Shown here one piece after another: positions 3,638 to 30,896 of a DNA stretch of 64,000 nt. A model generated the notes under the pieces. That model did not search any database, was not told where the DNA came from, and worked only from the letters and a program-made list of their open reading frames with translations. The DNA lies in contig CAUJGS010000040.1 of NCBI GenBank assembly GCA_963170185.1, positions 1 to 64,000 on the forward strand, given 5' to 3'. Numbering within the stretch: the stretch's first letter is position 1; each line of letters starts with the position of its first letter. The DNA comes from Bdellovibrionota bacterium (GTDB lineage: Bacteria > Bdellovibrionota > Bdellovibrionia > Bdellovibrionales > JAMPXM01). Made by a program: the position numbers and the translations under genes.

Positions 3638-4069
3638 ATGACTCAAAATTTCGTTTCTCGATTCTTGATCACGCTTCTAATGGGTGTCGCGATTGTCACC
3701 GCGGCCGCCCCGGCCCTCGCCGCCGAGAGTTCTTCTTCCGATACACTTTCCGAACAAGAGGACTTCTCGCGAGCAAAGGCGATTTTGAATCTGAATCCCG
3801 GTGACGAGATCACCATTCGCGCCAACACCACAACGACTGTGACGTGCGCAGCGGGTTCAAGTCTTCCAAACTGCAAGAGCGCGATCGCTAGCTACGAGTC
3901 TCGCTTCCAAACCTGCAAGCGCTCGTACCCAGCCTCGACCTGCTTCAACAACGAATGGCCCGCATTCAAAACACGCAATCCGGAATGTATTACAGAGGGC
4001 TTTGATGCCTGCGTCCGGACTTGCGGCGAGAGTTACCCTAGCTCGACTTGTTACAACAATTGCCGCTGA
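3638..4069 (+). CDS. Small secreted Cys-rich protein with duplicated C-terminal motif
   Basis: Signal peptide-like N-terminus ending AAPALAAES; two copies of C..SYP(A/S)STC(F/Y)NN; RBS-like gggagag upstream. Confidence 0.75.
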   Translation: MTQNFVSRFLITLLMGVAIVTAAAPALAAESSSSDTLSEQEDFSRAKAILNLNPGDEITIRANTTTTVTCAAGSSLPNCKSAIASYESRFQTCKRSYPASTCFNNEWPAFKTRNPECITEGFDACVRTCGESYPSSTCYNNCR

Positions 4070-4094
4070 CCTAGACTGAGTGGACGAGGTGAAA

Positions 4095-4733
4095 ATGAAA
4101 TCGTCCACTCTACTTACGTCCGTACTTGCTCTGGCCGCTACCACCGCCATCACCGCGATCTCGCTGCCAGCGCAAGCGCTTGTCGAACTCAAAGGCGCCT
4201 ACTCGCTTTTCTCGACAAACCCATCTGGCTTAAACGACAACTTCACTGGTCAGCCTAAAATCTCACAGATGCAGGCGCTCAGCTTTGACGTCATGGGCCG
4301 CGTCCCATTGATGCCCGTGGGGCTAGGAGTTCGTCACGAAATGTTCTCTCGCAAGGAGAGCGACGGCGCACTGAATTCCGAAGTCGACTGGAAACGCACA
4401 TCGATCTTGGTGAACAAACGTCTGATCGACACCGGCATCTATCTTGGTCCGGTCGCGACCGTTAGCTTCGCCAGCGATTTCAAATACCGCTCGGCAAACG
4501 GCACGACACGCGCCGATTACAAAACTGAGAGCACGCTCACTGCGACAGCTGGTGTAGAGGCCGGATTTAAAATGGCGCTTCTCAGTGCCGGTATCGAGGC
4601 AGGCTACCTGCACGCTCCCATGGGGAACTTACGAGACTCGGCGGGTGTCGAAGTCGTCGACGGCGGTGGCTCGAAGGTCAACGTCGACCTCAGCGGCACA
4701 TACCTGCGCGCAACAGTAGGCTTCGGCTTTTAA
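4095..4733 (+). CDS. Secreted outer-membrane beta-barrel-like protein
   Basis: MKSSTLLTSVLALAATTAITAISLPAQAL signal peptide, alternating hydrophobic pattern, C-terminal YLRATVGFGF typical of OMP end. Confidence 0.7.
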   Translation: MKSSTLLTSVLALAATTAITAISLPAQALVELKGAYSLFSTNPSGLNDNFTGQPKISQMQALSFDVMGRVPLMPVGLGVRHEMFSRKESDGALNSEVDWKRTSILVNKRLIDTGIYLGPVATVSFASDFKYRSANGTTRADYKTESTLTATAGVEAGFKMALLSAGIEAGYLHAPMGNLRDSAGVEVVDGGGSKVNVDLSGTYLRATVGFGF

Positions 4734-4747
4734 GTCCACGGCTGCGG

Positions 4748-5605
4748 CTATAGCGACATGGTGGCGCGGGGCTCTCCGAATGGGACGGGCCTTCCGCCAA
4801 AATAGGCCGACTGAATCGCGTGCCAGGATTTCTCGGCCAGCTCTGTTCGAATGCGCTCGCCGGGAATTCCTTCCGGCTTCGACGAAATCGGATCCAAAAA
4901 CTGGAGCTGCACCTTCACTTCACGATGCTTCAGCAGGCCCAAGAAATGGTCGGCAAACGTCATATCGCCGTACCAACAAACCTTGTCGGCATTTGCTTTG
5001 CCAAACGGCTCGCCGTCGACCGACATGTACTTCATCGCCACCGGCACGATCTCTCGCTCGGCATCGACAGCACTCATCAGAAGCGACTTCTTAAACGGCA
5101 GAAGCTTCTGCCCATCGGTCGATGTCCCCTCTGGATAGATCACGATGTTGAAACCATTGCGAAGCGTATTGGTCATGTTTGAGAGATCTTGATCCACGCG
5201 ATGGCGACTTCGGCGTTCAACGAAAATACTGCCACCCATCTCCGCCAGCGTGCCAAGGAAAAACACCTGCCCCATATCGACGCTCGTGACAAACACGCTT
5301 GGAACCTTCGCGCTGAAGATCAAGACATCGAGATAGCTCATGTGGTTTGAAACGAAGAGGTAGTTGCGATTTTTGAGATCTAGCTTTTCAAGCCCAAGAA
5401 CTTCGATCTCAAAATTGAGAACCTTCAATGCTTTAGAGCCCCAGCGTGAAATGTTCTCGATGAAGAAACGCAGTCTATCGTGCGGATCGCGAATCAGAGC
5501 TTTTCCCATCGAGGCCTGCGCCATATAAGCCGCAATCAGACCCGCAATTGTTCCGCCTCGTGGCGCCATTGCCAACTTCTCGAGAATCGTCTGTTCTTGG
5601 CCCAC
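4748..5605 (-). CDS. Lysophospholipid (1-acylglycerol-3-phosphate) acyltransferase, PlsC family (possible OlsA)
   Basis: NHMSYLDVLIF (NHxxxxD) and YPEGTSTDGQ motifs. Confidence 0.9.
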   Translation of the reverse strand: MGQEQTILEKLAMAPRGGTIAGLIAAYMAQASMGKALIRDPHDRLRFFIENISRWGSKALKVLNFEIEVLGLEKLDLKNRNYLFVSNHMSYLDVLIFSAKVPSVFVTSVDMGQVFFLGTLAEMGGSIFVERRSRHRVDQDLSNMTNTLRNGFNIVIYPEGTSTDGQKLLPFKKSLLMSAVDAEREIVPVAMKYMSVDGEPFGKANADKVCWYGDMTFADHFLGLLKHREVKVQLQFLDPISSKPEGIPGERIRTELAEKSWHAIQSAYFGGRPVPFGEPRATMSL

Positions 5606-5639
5606 GAAAGCTTCCTCTTCTCAAAATTTTCCGGACGTT

Positions 5640-6680
5640 CTAATCTTCTTCTTGGTTGGGACTGAAGTAGCGACGGCGAAACGCCTCGTCCAGATCCGCG
5701 ACACGCATCATGATAAAAAAGTCGATGCAATGAAAGTCACGATCAAGAGCCGGCTCACCGTACGCCTTAAATCCCATCTTAAAGTAAGACTTCATCAACG
5801 CCGGGATGCGCGCATCGATCTCTTTGGCATCGTATTCAAACGGGTTCTTTTCTAGATAGGTAAGAACCTGAGGCAGCGTTTTTACTTTGTATTTCTTCGT
5901 CGGCTCGATTCCGAGATCGTGCCGCAAGAGCCCTTCGCTTTCGAGGTGGTGACTGTAAAGCCCGATTTCCAGCGGCTCCATGGTTTTGGCGCTCGCGCAA
6001 CCGATCATCGTGTCGGCTTCGACGGCGACTACGTACTGCGCAATTCCTCGCCAAAGAAGCGAGATCACCGCGCCTGTACGAAACTCGCGATCAATCGCCG
6101 CGCGCCCGAGTTCGAGCACTGTGCCCGCATCTTTTAGAATGTGCTCGAATTCAAATTCGGAACTCGAATAATAAACGTCGGAGTAGCGATTCGAGTTCAA
6201 GCGATAGGTTCCGACGATGCGCCCTTCACGGTTGTCACGAATGATCAGGTGATCGCAAACGTAATCCAACTTGTCGACGTCGACACCGGCTCGCGGCTTA
6301 AGGTTTTTATATTCACGCACAAAAACATCGAAACGAAGGCGCAAGACCTCTTCCAACTCTTCGCCAGTCGTGACGGTCTTGACCGTGAAGTGGCCTTTTT
6401 TGAATTCGAACTTCACCTTCGGTTGGAACTCGCGAACCTTAAAACGATGCAGCTTCAGCTGCGCGTCCAACGAGTGAAAGGCTTCTTTTACAGTGCCAAT
6501 TCGCCGCATGACTTTGACGGCGGCGGTCTTCGAAACAGTCTTCAATCGACGAGCTCCGGCTGAGGGTTTCTTCGCCGCGGCAGAGGAGTTCGAGGAAGCC
6601 TTCTCGGTGCGATTTGAGCTCTTGCTCAGTCGACCCCGAATTTTCTTCTTTATCGCATTGCGAATCCGCCCCTTAGCCAC
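5640..6680 (-). CDS. GNAT/N-acyltransferase of the OlsB/hemolysin-like family
   Basis: LRLRFDVFVREYKN, RIVGTYRL, ELGRAAIDREFRTGAVISLLWRGIAQYV; adjacent to PlsC gene in olsB-olsA order. Confidence 0.75.
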   Translation of the reverse strand: MAKGRIRNAIKKKIRGRLSKSSNRTEKASSNSSAAAKKPSAGARRLKTVSKTAAVKVMRRIGTVKEAFHSLDAQLKLHRFKVREFQPKVKFEFKKGHFTVKTVTTGEELEEVLRLRFDVFVREYKNLKPRAGVDVDKLDYVCDHLIIRDNREGRIVGTYRLNSNRYSDVYYSSSEFEFEHILKDAGTVLELGRAAIDREFRTGAVISLLWRGIAQYVVAVEADTMIGCASAKTMEPLEIGLYSHHLESEGLLRHDLGIEPTKKYKVKTLPQVLTYLEKNPFEYDAKEIDARIPALMKSYFKMGFKAYGEPALDRDFHCIDFFIMMRVADLDEAFRRRYFSPNQEED

Positions 6681-6802
6681 GCGTTCCCCCTTTATGCTAG
6701 CTGCCTCGCGGTCCTCACGCGGTCAAGATTCGATTGGGATGCGGCGCGGAATTCTGCAATCTCTCACGTCGATTCCCCCGGTTTTCCCTTATTTTAAGCA
6801 CC

Positions 6803-7315
6803 TTACAGCTTATTGGTAAACACCGAGACATCGGCATAACGGGTGCTGGCCGTGAACAGAGCGTTGGTCAAACTACCCTCGGCATCCCCCGGCTGAGCAT
6901 CGCCGTTGTAGTTGCCGCTGATATTCAGCACCACACAAACCGAATAAGTCCCTTCGGGAATATAAGTCGCAGTTTGCGCGGCCGTGTCGATGAACTGCGA
7001 AACCGTGCCCGTGCAACCGAGCGCATTGCACGAAACCGTCCCAGAGCCGGCCACCTTCTGACCAAATTCAGCCGACGCACAGCTAGGAGACTCCGTGATC
7101 GTCACAAACGCTTGAATGGAACCCGAGGCCGCTCGACAGTTCGTCGACGTACAGCTAATGCGCACATCGGGAATCAGCATCGATCTACCGCTGCCGGCGA
7201 TCTCCGCGCAGCCCGACATCAGGAGACCGACCGCTAGGGCGGCGCCCGACGTCAGTGCGCCAAACCGACGCTTCGTACTCTGTGTTTTATAGGTTTTATT
7301 GCCCGCTACCACCAT
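6803..7315 (-). CDS. Hypothetical lipoprotein
   Basis: N-terminal region AALAVGLLMSGCAEIAGSG with lipobox. Confidence 0.65.
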   Translation of the reverse strand: MVVAGNKTYKTQSTKRRFGALTSGAALAVGLLMSGCAEIAGSGRSMLIPDVRISCTSTNCRAASGSIQAFVTITESPSCASAEFGQKVAGSGTVSCNALGCTGTVSQFIDTAAQTATYIPEGTYSVCVVLNISGNYNGDAQPGDAEGSLTNALFTASTRYADVSVFTNKL

Positions 7316-7414
7316 GCCTCATCCTATCGAGAGGCCCCGGAGGCCGACAACTGTTTCAACCAACAAGCCCGAGAAAAGGAATCCAATATTGGAACTCCTG
7401 TCTTGGGTTCTGAT

Positions 7415-8056
7415 TTACGGATATTTCACGCCGCAGCCGTAGGGTTTTGTCGAGGCCGTCTTCACCGGTTTACCGGCCGCGATGAGGTCCAGAGCGCCTG
7501 AAACGTAGTTTTCAGCCTTGGCAACATCCTCTTTTTTCGACGACGAGATACTATCGATCGCTCCGTTGTACACCAACGTGCCCTTGGCATCGACGATGTA
7601 CATGTGCGGAGTCGTTTTCGCTACGTAGAGCTTTCCGACTTCGCCCTTTGGATCAAGCAGTGTTGCCGTGCTTGCGATCTTCCAATCCGCTCGAGTCTTG
7701 TTGGCTTCTGCGCCTTCTTCAAAACCCTGCTTGCCTGGTGCCGACGAAATCACCGTCAACCATACAACACCCTTGTCTGTGTACTTCTTCTGCAAGGCTT
7801 GCATGTTCTGTGATTCGTAGTGTTTTTGAACGTATGGGCAGCCTTTGTTGAACCACTCGAGCACGACTGTTTTACCCGCAAACGACGAGAGCTTGTGCGA
7901 CTTGCCGTTGGTGTCGACAAGTTCAAACTCCGGAGCTTTCTCGCCCACTTTTGCCGCTGCAAGAGCTTGAGTCGACGCCATAGTCAGACCCAGAACCAGT
8001 GCTGCCAACGCTGAAAAATACGTTCCTCGAACTAACTTCATGATCATCCTCCACAA
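7415..8056 (-). CDS. Secreted thioredoxin-fold redoxin (AhpC/TSA-type)
   Basis: Signal peptide; VGEKAPEFELVDTNGKSHKLSSFAGKTVVLEWFNKGCPYVQKHYES. Confidence 0.85.
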   Translation of the reverse strand: MWRMIMKLVRGTYFSALAALVLGLTMASTQALAAAKVGEKAPEFELVDTNGKSHKLSSFAGKTVVLEWFNKGCPYVQKHYESQNMQALQKKYTDKGVVWLTVISSAPGKQGFEEGAEANKTRADWKIASTATLLDPKGEVGKLYVAKTTPHMYIVDAKGTLVYNGAIDSISSSKKEDVAKAENYVSGALDLIAAGKPVKTASTKPYGCGVKYP

Positions 8057-20295: not shown

Positions 20296-20745
20296 CTACT
20301 TCATGAGGCTCGCTTTCAGGGTTCGACTCAGGTCGAACTCTGACACTTTCGAAAAACGACAGCTGACGACACCGACCTTGTCTCGAGCCACGAGGGTGCC
20401 CTCGCCGCTCGATTTCGTTAAGAAGTCGAGATCCGCTTCAAACAGCGCATCCCAAACGCCGATCAGTTTGCAGTCGCGAAGTGCTCCCATAATTTTCATC
20501 TTCGAAACAGCTCCCCTGCGCGTATCAAACACTTTGAGATCCTGCACAGCACAGCTCTGTTTCAGAAGGTGATCCTCTAAAGTAGCCGATCCTGAATAAG
20601 CAATACGAAACGAGGCCTCTTTGCCTTTGCAGTCGAGAACCGATTTGCCGGCCGCTATAGCAGGGTCGATCGGCAGGCCAAACGCCAGCGAGAAATATCC
20701 TGCAAACAAAAAAAACCTCACTGTCTTTGCCAAACGTGATCTCAC
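20296..20745 (-). CDS. Small hypothetical secreted protein
   Basis: Signal peptide RFFLFAGYFSLAFGLPIDPAIAA; start overlaps stop region of 20742-22418 by 4 bp. Confidence 0.7.
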   Translation of the reverse strand: MRSRLAKTVRFFLFAGYFSLAFGLPIDPAIAAGKSVLDCKGKEASFRIAYSGSATLEDHLLKQSCAVQDLKVFDTRRGAVSKMKIMGALRDCKLIGVWDALFEADLDFLTKSSGEGTLVARDKVGVVSCRFSKVSEFDLSRTLKASLMK

Positions 20746-22418
20746 TTAGCGCCCCTTGGTCGACAGTAGCGCGCAACATTCGTCGCGCAATGGAGATTGC
20801 CATAGGCGCGATGCAGACTATAGGTGTCGACAAACTCCAGCTCTAAGCCGAGCTTTTCAAAAACCTTCCGATTGTATTCACGCATGGATTCGTTCATCGG
20901 GTCCGGCATGAAGTACCGATTTCCAATTAAAACTCCGTTTGTCGGCGGCGGGTTTAAAGCCGAGCCTGATCTCGGCACCGAAAAGGGGCTGCCGGAAACA
21001 GGCAATGTCTTGCCTTGAAAAATCTGAGGAACTGCAATGATCTCGGGATTGCAGCCAGGTATCTGCTTTTGAATTGCCTCACGCAGAACTTGGACATTGC
21101 CCATCTGAGCCGCTTCAACCGTCATGTTAAAATCCCAGGCCGGATACCGACGCCCCTCATCGACAGACATCGTGTTCAACACGTCTGCGTTAGTCATTTC
21201 CGCGCAGTCTTTTCGAAAGTAATTCCGCGGAAGGCTTTCGTCGAATTTCTGGTCTATCATCAACTCACGGCCGATTCGCTTCCTCAGCTCGCTTAGCAAA
21301 GCCGCGCGGCGCTTTTCAAGCCCCTCGCTGTCGGAAGCCGGGGAACGCCTCGAACTCCCCAACGAAGAAACCGTCTTATCGTTCGCGCGCTTTCTCTTTT
21401 CTGGCGATCGGCTCTTTTGGATTTGATGGTGAAGCGAACAAACCTTCGTCCATCCACCATGGGCCTCGATGCGATTTTCGAGTTCGGCGGTCGACGCCCC
21501 TTTGACATGAAAGGCCCGCTTCTCTGGCTCCGCCTGAAGCACGTCCACGGCTTTCAAGGGACTCGCCACCAAAATCGCGAAGGCACAAGAGCCTTCCTTT
21601 TTGCGATTGGGCACGACGGCCACGAACTCGTCCACATGACCAGGAGACAGATAGCCAGTGTCGATCTCTACGATCTTCGACTTTTCGCCGCATGCCAGAG
21701 GGAAATACTCGCTAACGGCCTTTCTTGAAAGATCACTTGAACCCACGACACAAAGCCCGCCGGGAAAGCCCTCAATATTGCCACCAGCAAATCCCGACTG
21801 CGGTGGCGCAGAATAATGAATGCTCGGCGCGGGCTTTAGACCGCACTGCTGCTGCATGCGTGCGATGGTTGTCCGCGCGATGCGCTTGGTGCCTCTTCCA
21901 AAATATGGCGTGATCTCACGCATGATGGGACGCCCGGACGCCGCATCGAAGCTTTCTTGAAACATGTCCTGTTGCCATGTCCAAGGATGCGTTCGAACCA
22001 TATCGGGATTCAGAGTGATCCCCTTGGCAATCGCATCGCTTTTAGCGAGACCACGGCGAGCGAGCTCTTTGATCAGCCATTCACGTGTCGCCGGTGAACC
22101 GTTGAGAAAAACCTGAGGCGGCTTTCCCGGCTGTGCCTTCCAGAATTTTTCAACAGTATCGGCAAGTAGCTGCTTTCTATCGGTTCCAAAAGCTCGTTCG
22201 GCCTCTGGCGACCATAGCGAAAAATCTTCGGCAATCGTGATGGCAGCGGCCGGGTACCAAGGCGGAAGAATATCTCCCGACTCAGGACAAAGAGGAACAC
22301 CAAGATCTTGGGGGTCATGAGCCGAACAGTTGTTCACTTCGGGCTTCGCCAGTGGCTCGCCAACGACATCGACCGAAACCACAAGCAGGACAAGAAAGAG
22401 AGAGAAAAATCTAGCCAC
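20742..22418 (-). CDS. Secreted protein-arginine deiminase (PAD)-like protein
   Basis: Signal peptide; TWQQDMFQ, GGNIEGFPGGLCVVGSS, SPGHVDEFVAVVP, PQIFQG, C-terminal NLHCATNVARYC correspond to animal PAD motifs around the catalytic Asp, His-x-Asp and Cys. Confidence 0.8.
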   Translation of the reverse strand: MARFFSLFLVLLVVSVDVVGEPLAKPEVNNCSAHDPQDLGVPLCPESGDILPPWYPAAAITIAEDFSLWSPEAERAFGTDRKQLLADTVEKFWKAQPGKPPQVFLNGSPATREWLIKELARRGLAKSDAIAKGITLNPDMVRTHPWTWQQDMFQESFDAASGRPIMREITPYFGRGTKRIARTTIARMQQQCGLKPAPSIHYSAPPQSGFAGGNIEGFPGGLCVVGSSDLSRKAVSEYFPLACGEKSKIVEIDTGYLSPGHVDEFVAVVPNRKKEGSCAFAILVASPLKAVDVLQAEPEKRAFHVKGASTAELENRIEAHGGWTKVCSLHHQIQKSRSPEKRKRANDKTVSSLGSSRRSPASDSEGLEKRRAALLSELRKRIGRELMIDQKFDESLPRNYFRKDCAEMTNADVLNTMSVDEGRRYPAWDFNMTVEAAQMGNVQVLREAIQKQIPGCNPEIIAVPQIFQGKTLPVSGSPFSVPRSGSALNPPPTNGVLIGNRYFMPDPMNESMREYNRKVFEKLGLELEFVDTYSLHRAYGNLHCATNVARYCRPRGAK

Positions 22419-22469
22419 GAGGGGCTCCTTTTCATCTACCTCTCTATCTTACCGCGCTCTCCACCCGTC

Positions 22470-23087
22470 CTAGGTAACCGTTTTACGAAAAAACTGGACC
22501 GCGAGCCCAGATGTAACCTGCATCACGACCGAATAAAACACCGCAGGAAGTGCCATCTCCACGCTTTTAAAGAGGAGCGGACTCATTGCGATCGTGATCG
22601 CCATGATACAATTGTGAACGCCGACCTCGAAGGTGATCGCAATCGCCTGTTTCTTGGCGAGGTTGCACATTCTGGACGCACCATAGGCAAAGACCAGATT
22701 CAAAATGTTAAAAAGAAGCACCGCAAATAGAATCGTGAACCCCGACTCCGTCAGGAGTTTCCACTCGTTCCGTACGCCGATCACGGCAAGCAAGATGATA
22801 AAAAACACCGCAATTCGCTGCACCCAGGGTTCGATTTTTTTCGCGGCTTCGGGTTTTCGCTTTCGGAATAACATGCCCAAAGCGACCGGCAAGAGCACGA
22901 TCAAAATCGTCTGCGCAATTTTGGCCGCGGGAACCGGAACGCTGCGCGAGCTTTCCAAAATCAACTCGCTGGCAAACATCAAAAATAGCGGAACGTACGC
23001 CACTCCCAAGGCCGAGTTGATGGCCGTTAAGGAAACATTCAGCGCGACATCACCCGCATCGCCTTTTCCGAGGCATTTTAGTTTGAA
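22470..23087 (-). pseudogene. Bile acid:sodium symporter (BASS) family, N-terminally truncated remnant
   Basis: In-frame translation from just after the sthA stop reads FKLKCLGKGDAGDVALNVSLTAINSALGVAYVPLFLMFASELILE..., which is BASS C-terminal half; the N-terminal half is absent and no ATG/GTG lies at the expected start. Confidence 0.65.
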
Positions 23088-28713: not shown

Positions 28714-29464
28714 CTTGCAATCTCCTTGGCTGCATTATCTCCGGCGAAAAACCCAGCTGTCCACACGCATTCTGCCAGCGTTGGGTAAAGGGCGCGGCAA
28801 AGCGGTAAGGTTCGCCATCAAACTCAAAACTAAGCTCCGATGCGCGCAGCCAGAGCCCGCCCAGTCCAAGACTCTCGCGAAAGTAACGGCTGTGATGCGA
28901 ATCGCCATGTTCCCGGTCGCCAATAATCGGATGCGAGCTTCGCGCGAAATGTCGACGAATTTGGTGCCAACGCCCCGTTAGCGGCCGAGCCTCCACCAGC
29001 GAATACCGCGCCGTCGGATATCGTTTTCCTACCGGAAACGGACATTCGACTTTCGCCAATGTTCGAAACTTCGTCGAGGCATCGGCAAGCGTCCCATTGG
29101 AGTCGCGCTCCAGCGGCATGTCGATCAACCCTTCGTCTTCCATCCAGCCGCGACAAATCGCATGGTAGACCTTTTTCACCTGCCCCGCCTGAAGCGCGGC
29201 TTGCAAACGTCCCGCGACCTCCGACTGCAACGCCATGATCAACACACCTTCGGTCGCGACATCCAGCCGATGAACAGGGTACAGAAATTTCTCCACCTGA
29301 CGGCGCAAAGTCCAAAGCACCGTCAACTCACGCGGCACGCGGCGCCGGGCCATCTCGGGCTGGTGAACATGCATGCCGGGAGGCTTGTGAATCGCGATCA
29401 ACGATTCATTTTGGAAAAGCACGTGGAGATCCGCGATCGATCCCTGGCGTACATCCGAAGTCAT
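28703..29464 (-). CDS. truC: RluA-family pseudouridine synthase (TruC-like)
   Basis: LIAIHKPPGMHVHQ, YPVHRLDVATEGVLIMA, GRWHQIRRHFA. Confidence 0.85.
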   Translation of the reverse strand: MTSDVRQGSIADLHVLFQNESLIAIHKPPGMHVHQPEMARRRVPRELTVLWTLRRQVEKFLYPVHRLDVATEGVLIMALQSEVAGRLQAALQAGQVKKVYHAICRGWMEDEGLIDMPLERDSNGTLADASTKFRTLAKVECPFPVGKRYPTARYSLVEARPLTGRWHQIRRHFARSSHPIIGDREHGDSHHSRYFRESLGLGGLWLRASELSFEFDGEPYRFAAPFTQRWQNACGQLGFSPEIMQPRRLQDGK

Positions 29465-30896
29465 AAATCAAACCCATTGTTCGTAAACGTTCTATCTTCT
29501 TCTCAAACAGCGACCAATCATCGCGCAGGTCTATCGCTTCCCAAATTTTTTCAACCTCATCAATCAGCATCATCTCCGGCAGATCTTTCGAAAAATAATC
29601 CGCGTGCTGAAGCAGTCGCAAATCGGCGAGACTTGAAACTTCCCACTCACCCTCTTCAAGGCTTTTTCGCCACTTCACGCCTTCTGGACCGGCATATTTC
29701 CCCGCATCGCGATCGCGCCTCAGACCGCCACCATAAAAATCAAAGAAGAAACTCTCAAACGGAACCTTGGATTCCTCCAAGGCCGCTATTCCTAGCGAAA
29801 ACAAGGCCTCTTCCGCCTCCATCTGTTCCGGTTTGTCCGTCGGAATCAGACCAAGACGACCAAAAAATCTCACCACAAGTTCCCGTCGATACACATTCGG
29901 AAAGCCCGATAGCGACTCACTCAACGACTTGTGCCACAAGTTTTCCGCCCCTTCCGGTGCCAACGCGAATAGCGCTCTCGCAAGCTGATCGAGATTCCAA
30001 TACACGGCCTCGGCTTGCCGCCCGTAGCAGTAAAGTCCTTCGTGGTCGAAGTAGGCCGCGGTGAAGCTCGGATCATAGAACGGCAAAAAGCGCCATGGAC
30101 CATAGTCAAAACTCTCGCCGGTGATGTTCATATTGTCCGTGTTCAAAACACCGTGGACAAAACCAGCCATCATCCAGCTTGCGGCAAGTCGCGCGGCACG
30201 CATGCTTACCTCACGCAAGAACGCGCAGACAAGTTCCTCCAAAGGCTCGTTCAAAATCTCAGGGAAGTACGACTGACAAGAGTACACCAAAAGTCGCTTG
30301 AGATTTTCAGTTTCTCCCAAAGCCTGAAAGCGCTGAAACATGCCGTAGCGAATATGCCCATGCGAGAGTCTCGTCAGCACCGCCGAACGCGTCGGCGAGG
30401 GCTCGTCGCCGCGAAAAAGCGATTCACCGGTCTCAAAAAAACAAAACGTCTTTGATGTCGGAACTCCCAAGGCTTCCAGCATCTCGGTCGCTAGCGCTTC
30501 GCGCACGGCGCCCTTTAGCGTCAGACGACCGTCTCCCGCACGCGAGTATGGCGTCGTGCCGCTGCCCTTGGTTCCAAAGTCCAAAAGCTTTCCATCGACG
30601 GGGTCTTCGATCTGAGCAAAGAGAAACCCACGCCCGTCGCCCAGCTGCGGGTTGTAGTGGCGAAACTGGTGCCCGTGGTATCGCATCGCCAACGGTTCGG
30701 GCTGACAACCAGGCAGAGGATGAAATCGACCAAAGTGTTTTACACGGCGGTCCGCGCCGAGGTCTCCCATCCCGATACGGTTTGCCCAAGGTTGGTTCCA
30801 GAATCTTGGCTCGAGACGAGGAAAATCGGCCGGGCGAACCGGATCAGAAAAGCCCGAAGGAAGCTGGGAGTAGTCGAGACGTGGCTTAAACGACAT
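29406..30896 (-). CDS. selO: SelO/YdiU family protein adenylyltransferase (UPF0061)
   Basis: MRYHGHQFRHYNPQLGDGRGFLFAQI, GTKGSGTTPYSRAGDGRLTLKGAVREALATE, VLTRLSHGHIRYGMFQ, HGVLNTDNMNITGESFDYGPWRFL. Confidence 0.95.
   Translation of the reverse strand: MSFKPRLDYSQLPSGFSDPVRPADFPRLEPRFWNQPWANRIGMGDLGADRRVKHFGRFHPLPGCQPEPLAMRYHGHQFRHYNPQLGDGRGFLFAQIEDPVDGKLLDFGTKGSGTTPYSRAGDGRLTLKGAVREALATEMLEALGVPTSKTFCFFETGESLFRGDEPSPTRSAVLTRLSHGHIRYGMFQRFQALGETENLKRLLVYSCQSYFPEILNEPLEELVCAFLREVSMRAARLAASWMMAGFVHGVLNTDNMNITGESFDYGPWRFLPFYDPSFTAAYFDHEGLYCYGRQAEAVYWNLDQLARALFALAPEGAENLWHKSLSESLSGFPNVYRRELVVRFFGRLGLIPTDKPEQMEAEEALFSLGIAALEESKVPFESFFFDFYGGGLRRDRDAGKYAGPEGVKWRKSLEEGEWEVSSLADLRLLQHADYFSKDLPEMMLIDEVEKIWEAIDLRDDWSLFEKKIERLRTMGLIYDFGCTPGIDRGSPRAFPK

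Follow-up and report, generated by a model that had tools for sequence, protein, structure and literature searches.

A predicted exported protein-arginine deiminase and an undescribed small partner family encoded side by side in Bdellovibrionota

A deiminase gene and its overlapping neighbour

The window analysed here is a stretch of 64,000 nucleotides from a Bdellovibrionota bacterium (contig CAUJGS010000040.1), and the unit under study lies at 20296-22418 within it: a gene for a protein of the protein-arginine deiminase (PAD) family, 558 amino acids (aa) long, and a gene for a 149-aa protein that we call the partner. An initial annotation of this DNA had placed both open reading frames (ORFs) on the minus strand with an overlap of 4 base pairs (bp), and the sequence bears this out—GTGA is common to the two genes, with the PAD stop codon TGA at 20742-20744 and the partner start codon GTG at 20743-20745 (Table 1). 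Promoter and terminator scans at the locus gave scores close to those of shuffled sequences.

The 558-aa protein is a true member of the PAD family with its catalytic residues in place. Among Pfam families it matches only PF03068 (PAD; 64 bits against a cut-off of 25, E = 1.6e-17), which is also matched by 40/40 aligned relatives. Plain phmmer searches with the protein reached human PAD1 and PAD4 at 6e-7 to 1e-5, and a profile of 40 sequences reached PAD4 at 7.5e-31, with residues 332-528 and 526-654 of a PAD4 chain covered by the alignment. An AlphaFold model built from the 40-row alignment (predicted local distance difference test, pLDDT, 84; predicted template modelling score, pTM, 0.85) agrees: the 50 PDB matches listed by Foldseek all came from PADs or from the egg lattice that contains PAD6 (best E 9.5e-16), with PAD4, PAD3, PAD1, and PAD2 at the top (E about 1e-15 to 1e-13). 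Profile search and predicted fold, the two checks proposed when a PAD-like identity was first suggested, therefore both place the protein inside the family. The motifs quoted in that suggestion (TWQQDMFQ, GGNIEGFPGG, SPGHVDEFVAVVP, and NLHCATNVARYC) are all present, and the PAD4 segment near Asp350, given there as WIQDE, is actually WMQDE, a small slip. In the profile alignment, D151, H261, D263, and C544 match PAD4 Asp350, His471, Asp473, and Cys645 in the same order, and the W and D of the first motif are invariant across the 40 relatives.

Several features nonetheless set the window PAD apart from the animal enzymes. Measured against the calcium ligands of PAD4, it keeps two of the three Ca1 side chains (Gln349 and Glu411, as Q150 and E216), has Gln154 in place of the third, Glu353, which is Glu in most relatives, and does not conserve the Ca2 ligands or Arg374, so that calcium and substrate handling are probably unlike those of animal PADs. 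No PAD_N or PAD_M domain was matched in any of the 40 relatives, the catalytic domain being the only one recognised. Further differences are an export signal, pairing with the partner, and an abundance of cysteines, many of them conserved among partnered PADs (C31, C44, C223, C243, C278, C327, C456, and C552). PPAD of Porphyromonas gingivalis, likewise an exported bacterial protein-arginine deiminase, belongs to a separate deiminase family, whereas the window protein matches only PF03068. Catalytic-domain fold, motif order, and the Asp/His/Asp/Cys set are instead those of the animal and bacterial PADI group, outside which PPAD-type enzymes lie (PF03068; PMC8826395). Both export of the window PAD and its citrullinating activity are predictions from the sequence.

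Table 1. Features of the PAD-partner locus, in window coordinates
Feature	Position	Strand	Details and basis
PAD-family protein gene	20742..22418	-	558 aa; GTG start, TGA stop
Partner gene	20296..20745	-	149 aa; GTG start; 4-bp overlap with PAD stop
Shine-Dalgarno-like AAAAGGAG of PAD gene	22425..22432	-	
Shine-Dalgarno-like AAGGGG of partner, within PAD 3' end	20752..20757	-	
Predicted PAD N-terminal export signal, about residues 1-20, MARFFSLFLVLLVVSVDVVG	22359..22418	-	hydrophobicity only
Predicted partner export signal, about residues 1-31	20653..20745	-	sequence and hydrophobicity
W148-Q-Q-D151 motif (PAD4 W347-M-Q-D350); D151 predicted catalytic	21966..21977	-	profile alignment to PAD4
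GGNIE motif, residues 212-216 (PAD4 FGNLE; E216 = E411, Ca1 ligand)	21771..21785	-	
G260-H261-V-D263-E264 motif (PAD4 H471, D473)	21627..21641	-	
H543-C544, predicted catalytic Cys (PAD4 C645)	20787..20792	-	
Partner mature core, cysteines C39, C65, C92, C129	20359..20631	-	alignment and model
SBF-type transporter fragment, 51 bp upstream of PAD	22470..23009	-	Pfam SBF positions 105-189 of 191 only

The small gene very probably belongs to a fast-evolving family beside PADs

A plain protein search with the 149-aa window protein in 99 relatives found no homologue, and an initial PAD scan that used just the window sequence came back empty, both genes being too divergent for such searches. The orphan status that these results suggested for the partner was ruled out by gene neighbourhoods: in the phylum, 30 of the 58 PAD genes examined have an exported ORF of 126-210 aa right behind them, with a start no more than 8 bp ahead of the PAD stop or 25 bp beyond it, and a 4-bp overlap is the commonest arrangement. 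Small exported ORFs are not merely common behind exported genes, since under a comparable rule only 7/156 other exported genes (4.5%) have such a follower (Fisher p 2.6e-14, a value to be read with the non-independence of related genomes in mind).

These small ORFs are one unnamed, fast-evolving family. Profiles built with one member left out regained 27 of the 31 testable members at E 1e-5 or better, and the family alignment holds two invariant cysteines (C2 and C3) and usually two more; in the window partner the invariant pair is C65 and C92 (36-row alignment). Members that lack the first cysteine also lack the fourth, and this joint loss suggests disulfides 1-4 and 2-3. The modelled window partner has eight strands and a C-terminal helix, forming a small beta-barrel (pLDDT 77.5, pTM 0.71). 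Searches of the family against PDB sequences, Pfam, and NCBIfam gave nothing convincing. Lipocalin-like or fHbp-barrel kinship appeared only as weak Foldseek shapes (E 0.08 or worse) and was not used as evidence.

The window partner very likely belongs to this family, although by sequence alone its case is weak: when it was left out and all other members served as the profile, it scored only E 0.1, and one unlisted ORF, lying just downstream of the PAD at locus L073, ranked above it. Together with the failed search in the 99 relatives, this score is what speaks for an unrelated gene that overlaps the PAD gene by chance. Such a coincidence seems to us highly improbable, given that position, coupling, length, export signal, and cysteine spacing (four cysteines, with PAD adjacency and a 4-bp overlap) are all as in the family. 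A clade A profile, with the window copy and clade B left out, moreover scored the window partner at E 0.03, above every non-member among 1,975 ORFs, and HHalign matched it over most of its length (p 4e-4). We assign it to the family on position, coupling, export signal, cysteine spacing, and these scores taken together. Other small exported ORFs of the window were ruled out as paralogues by profile search, and the family has a single copy in this genome.

Linkage to the PAD survives rearrangement, and partners accompany intact active sites

We surveyed 374 genomes of the phylum, using for the partner a profile that includes the window copy. PAD matches were found in 78 genomes and partner matches in 42, one of these (G131) being doubtful. 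Genomes carry one partner copy each; G220, with two, is an exception, and G131 has a pair of doubtful fragments. By our own count, 39 of the 42 clear partner copies adjoin a PAD, and the copies found away from one lie in fragmented drafts (G209, G210, and G103). The initial annotation had proposed checking for the small gene beside homologues of the PAD, and the outcome is clearly positive whether counted from the PADs (30/58) or from the partners (39/42). Two loci (L042 and L202) have the order reversed, the partner standing ahead of the PAD with adjacency kept, and G220 carries a tandem pair of PADs with a partner for each; linkage has thus outlasted rearrangement and duplication. In a tree of 92 PADs the partnered ones fall into two clades, the partner label changing 5 times compared with 30 in shuffles, and the two proteins diverge in parallel (Mantel r 0.86, p 0.0005), the partner faster. 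The partner is absent beside PADs of Riflebacteria, actinobacteria, and others.

All four active-site motifs are kept in 41/41 partnered PADs. The partner clades also contain eight PADs without a partner: seven of these have damage in a motif, and the remaining one (L062) resembles a lipoprotein. Among the seven, L050 and L058 branch from within the partnered PADs and have lost two residues, Gln in W-x-Q-D and Glu in GGN-x-E. Because the damaged partnerless PADs partly share ancestry, the independent events are fewer, perhaps five. From this pattern, which comes from sequence comparison, the partner seems to be needed only alongside an intact enzyme.

Presence and absence of the pair can also be followed at a single site. 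In three genomes (G213, G214, and G215) the PAD and partner are missing together, and the convergent lpdA-like and pepN-like flanking genes are separated by 3 to 64 bp; G220 has its two PAD-partner units at this very site. The SBF-family ORF upstream of the window PAD matches the family profile without its N-terminal half, lies 79 bp from the gene upstream, and falls outside the conserved unit, but is missing with the PAD and partner at the empty site; it is probably a remnant borne by the same island. A plasmid search for the PAD found none.

Other arrangements of PAD genes were also seen. At the G211 locus (L208, about 3700-7800), unrelated small genes extend over several kb next to the pepN-like flank, where the PAD and partner would stand, so that the site may be a recurrent insertion spot. 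A second, partnerless PAD clade (L052, L053, L054, L057, L060, L068, L088, and L091) looks membrane-anchored, with a long N-terminus bearing a transmembrane helix or with a lipobox, whereas partnered PADs look soluble and exported. G062 (L045-L048) holds four or more divergent PAD genes, none with the usual W-x-Q-D pattern or a partner.

A proposed exported enzyme with a cognate partner

We propose that the locus encodes a citrullinating enzyme that is exported and, in the periplasm, a cognate partner that most likely protects the producer by inhibiting the enzyme, and give this proposal as a whole about an even chance. Once exported, the single-domain deiminase would citrullinate protein arginines, whether these lie in the periplasm, beyond the cell, or within prey; the partner, made from the same mRNA through stop-start coupling and likewise exported, would bind the PAD and restrain it in the producer's own periplasm. 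Export of the PAD, its enzyme activity, and its binding to the partner are steps that we infer, and inhibition rather than assistance is the least certain of them, held with modest confidence and by analogy. Small beta-barrels are a general type seen in several secreted inhibitors. The secreted serralysin proteases represented by AprA have a periplasmic inhibitor, AprI, of the Inh family; the likeness lies in an exported enzyme with a small exported beta-barrel inhibitor encoded alongside, and the difference in that the window partner has no sequence or Pfam match to Inh. A second analogy comes from the same order of bacteria, in which the exported, prey-directed endopeptidases Bd3459 and Bd0816 have a self-protecting inhibitor, Bd3460 (PMC4686830), although the enzyme is a different one and Bd3460 is an ankyrin-repeat protein rather than a small predicted beta-barrel. 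It is these analogies, to Bd3460 and to the protease inhibitors, that lead us to favour an inhibitor.

Several observations weigh against this preference. Foldseek gave no significant match for the partner (best E 0.08), so that the analogy with inhibitors rests on general shape, and curated families of secreted protease inhibitors (Inh and others) gave no convincing match. Intact PADs without a partner occur in Riflebacteria, in actinobacteria, and among the anchored PADs of Bdellovibrionota, which makes the partner no universal need, and its disappearance where the enzyme is damaged would be expected of a chaperone no less than of an inhibitor. The main rival is accordingly a dedicated periplasmic factor for folding, export, or activation of the cysteine-rich PAD, for which lipase foldases are a named parallel. 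Such a helper would equally be expected to pair strictly with the PAD, to be coupled to it stop to start, and to disappear where the active site has decayed, and the many conserved PAD cysteines make assisted folding plausible. PADs elsewhere in the phylum and outside it manage without one, however, and orphan partners exist in G209, G210, and G103 (though in fragmented drafts); on balance we consider a helper rather unlikely.

The partner might also act as a substrate or pseudosubstrate, an arginine at a hairpin tip after the second cysteine being citrullinated or plugging the active site. Arginine is enriched at this column (14 of 35 rows, against a background of 5.4%), and in the model of the window partner R76-R77-G78 fall in the loop between two strands, which weakly allows a pseudosubstrate. 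Over half of the family has no arginine at the column, with SLG, KAV, or LGG instead, and we regard this role as quite improbable.

PADs are an enzyme class of medical interest, and the partner, if it does inhibit, would be a natural protein that restrains one of them. We know of no established role for bacterial PADs of this kind, and a literature search, with most subscription papers outside its reach, found no paper on a Bdellovibrio PAD or its partner. Bacterial PADs are themselves already known, though described as rare (under 1% of species; PMC8826395), and a 2021 survey counts proteobacterial PADs, its main text being silent on secretion, signal peptides, operons, and Bdellovibrio (Cummings et al. 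2021; PMC8826395). What is new here is a known enzyme family in exported, partnered form, together with an undescribed partner family: PADs are matched in about a fifth of the surveyed genomes of one phylum, and about half of the PAD genes examined have an unnamed cognate partner.

The unit in Bdellovibrio bacteriovorus and predation

The two-gene unit recurs across the phylum, B. bacteriovorus HD100 included, so that these bacteria may modify proteins beyond their own cytoplasm and may need the partner to do so safely. In HD100 (G134) the PAD and partner lie on the same strand, 89 bp upstream of a gene for an exported staphylococcal nuclease, which is bd1934, as both published bd1934 primers match exactly inside it (PMC3593177). 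This predation-induced gene responds to prey contact with a peak at 15-45 min, and its deletion leaves predation intact and affects biofilms (PMC3593177). The order PAD-partner-nuclease is found at four further loci (L036, L195, L196, and L199), and we would guess that the three genes are co-transcribed. In Bdellovibrio genomes the PAD is preceded, 2-3 bp upstream, by a 543-aa ORF (L211:10979-12610 in G134) that matches nothing in Pfam or NCBIfam, and the operon there may comprise four genes: this ORF, the PAD, the partner, and bd1934.

Under an inhibitor, citrullination would become a candidate predation activity, testable in HD100. The fullest version of this idea, in which predatory Bdellovibrionota citrullinate prey proteins during invasion and a periplasmic beta-barrel family, some of its members with a pseudosubstrate arginine loop, inhibits the PADs, strikes us as unlikely. 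Somewhat less doubtful, and compatible with the other readings, is that the pair modifies the envelope or biofilm matrix and is not a predation tool, the link to bd1934 being positional only. Its occurrence is patchy, to the point of absence from all four of the other searched genomes of the window's genus, and the bd1934 deletion spares predation and affects biofilms; the pair is, on the other hand, frequent in a predator-rich phylum and adjoins a predation-induced gene in HD100.

Another predation-induced gene, bd1904, was set aside as part of the locus, since counting genes places it some 23 kb from there. A small exported ORF beside an FKBP-type isomerase (L212:1240-1785; about 1,823,739-1,824,284 of G134) is, by the same count, probably the published bd1904, which is induced 13.9-fold at 30 min of predation (PMC2797640). 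Elsewhere in the window, an ORF at 29406-30896 on the minus strand resembles the SelO/YdiU protein adenylyltransferase by eye.
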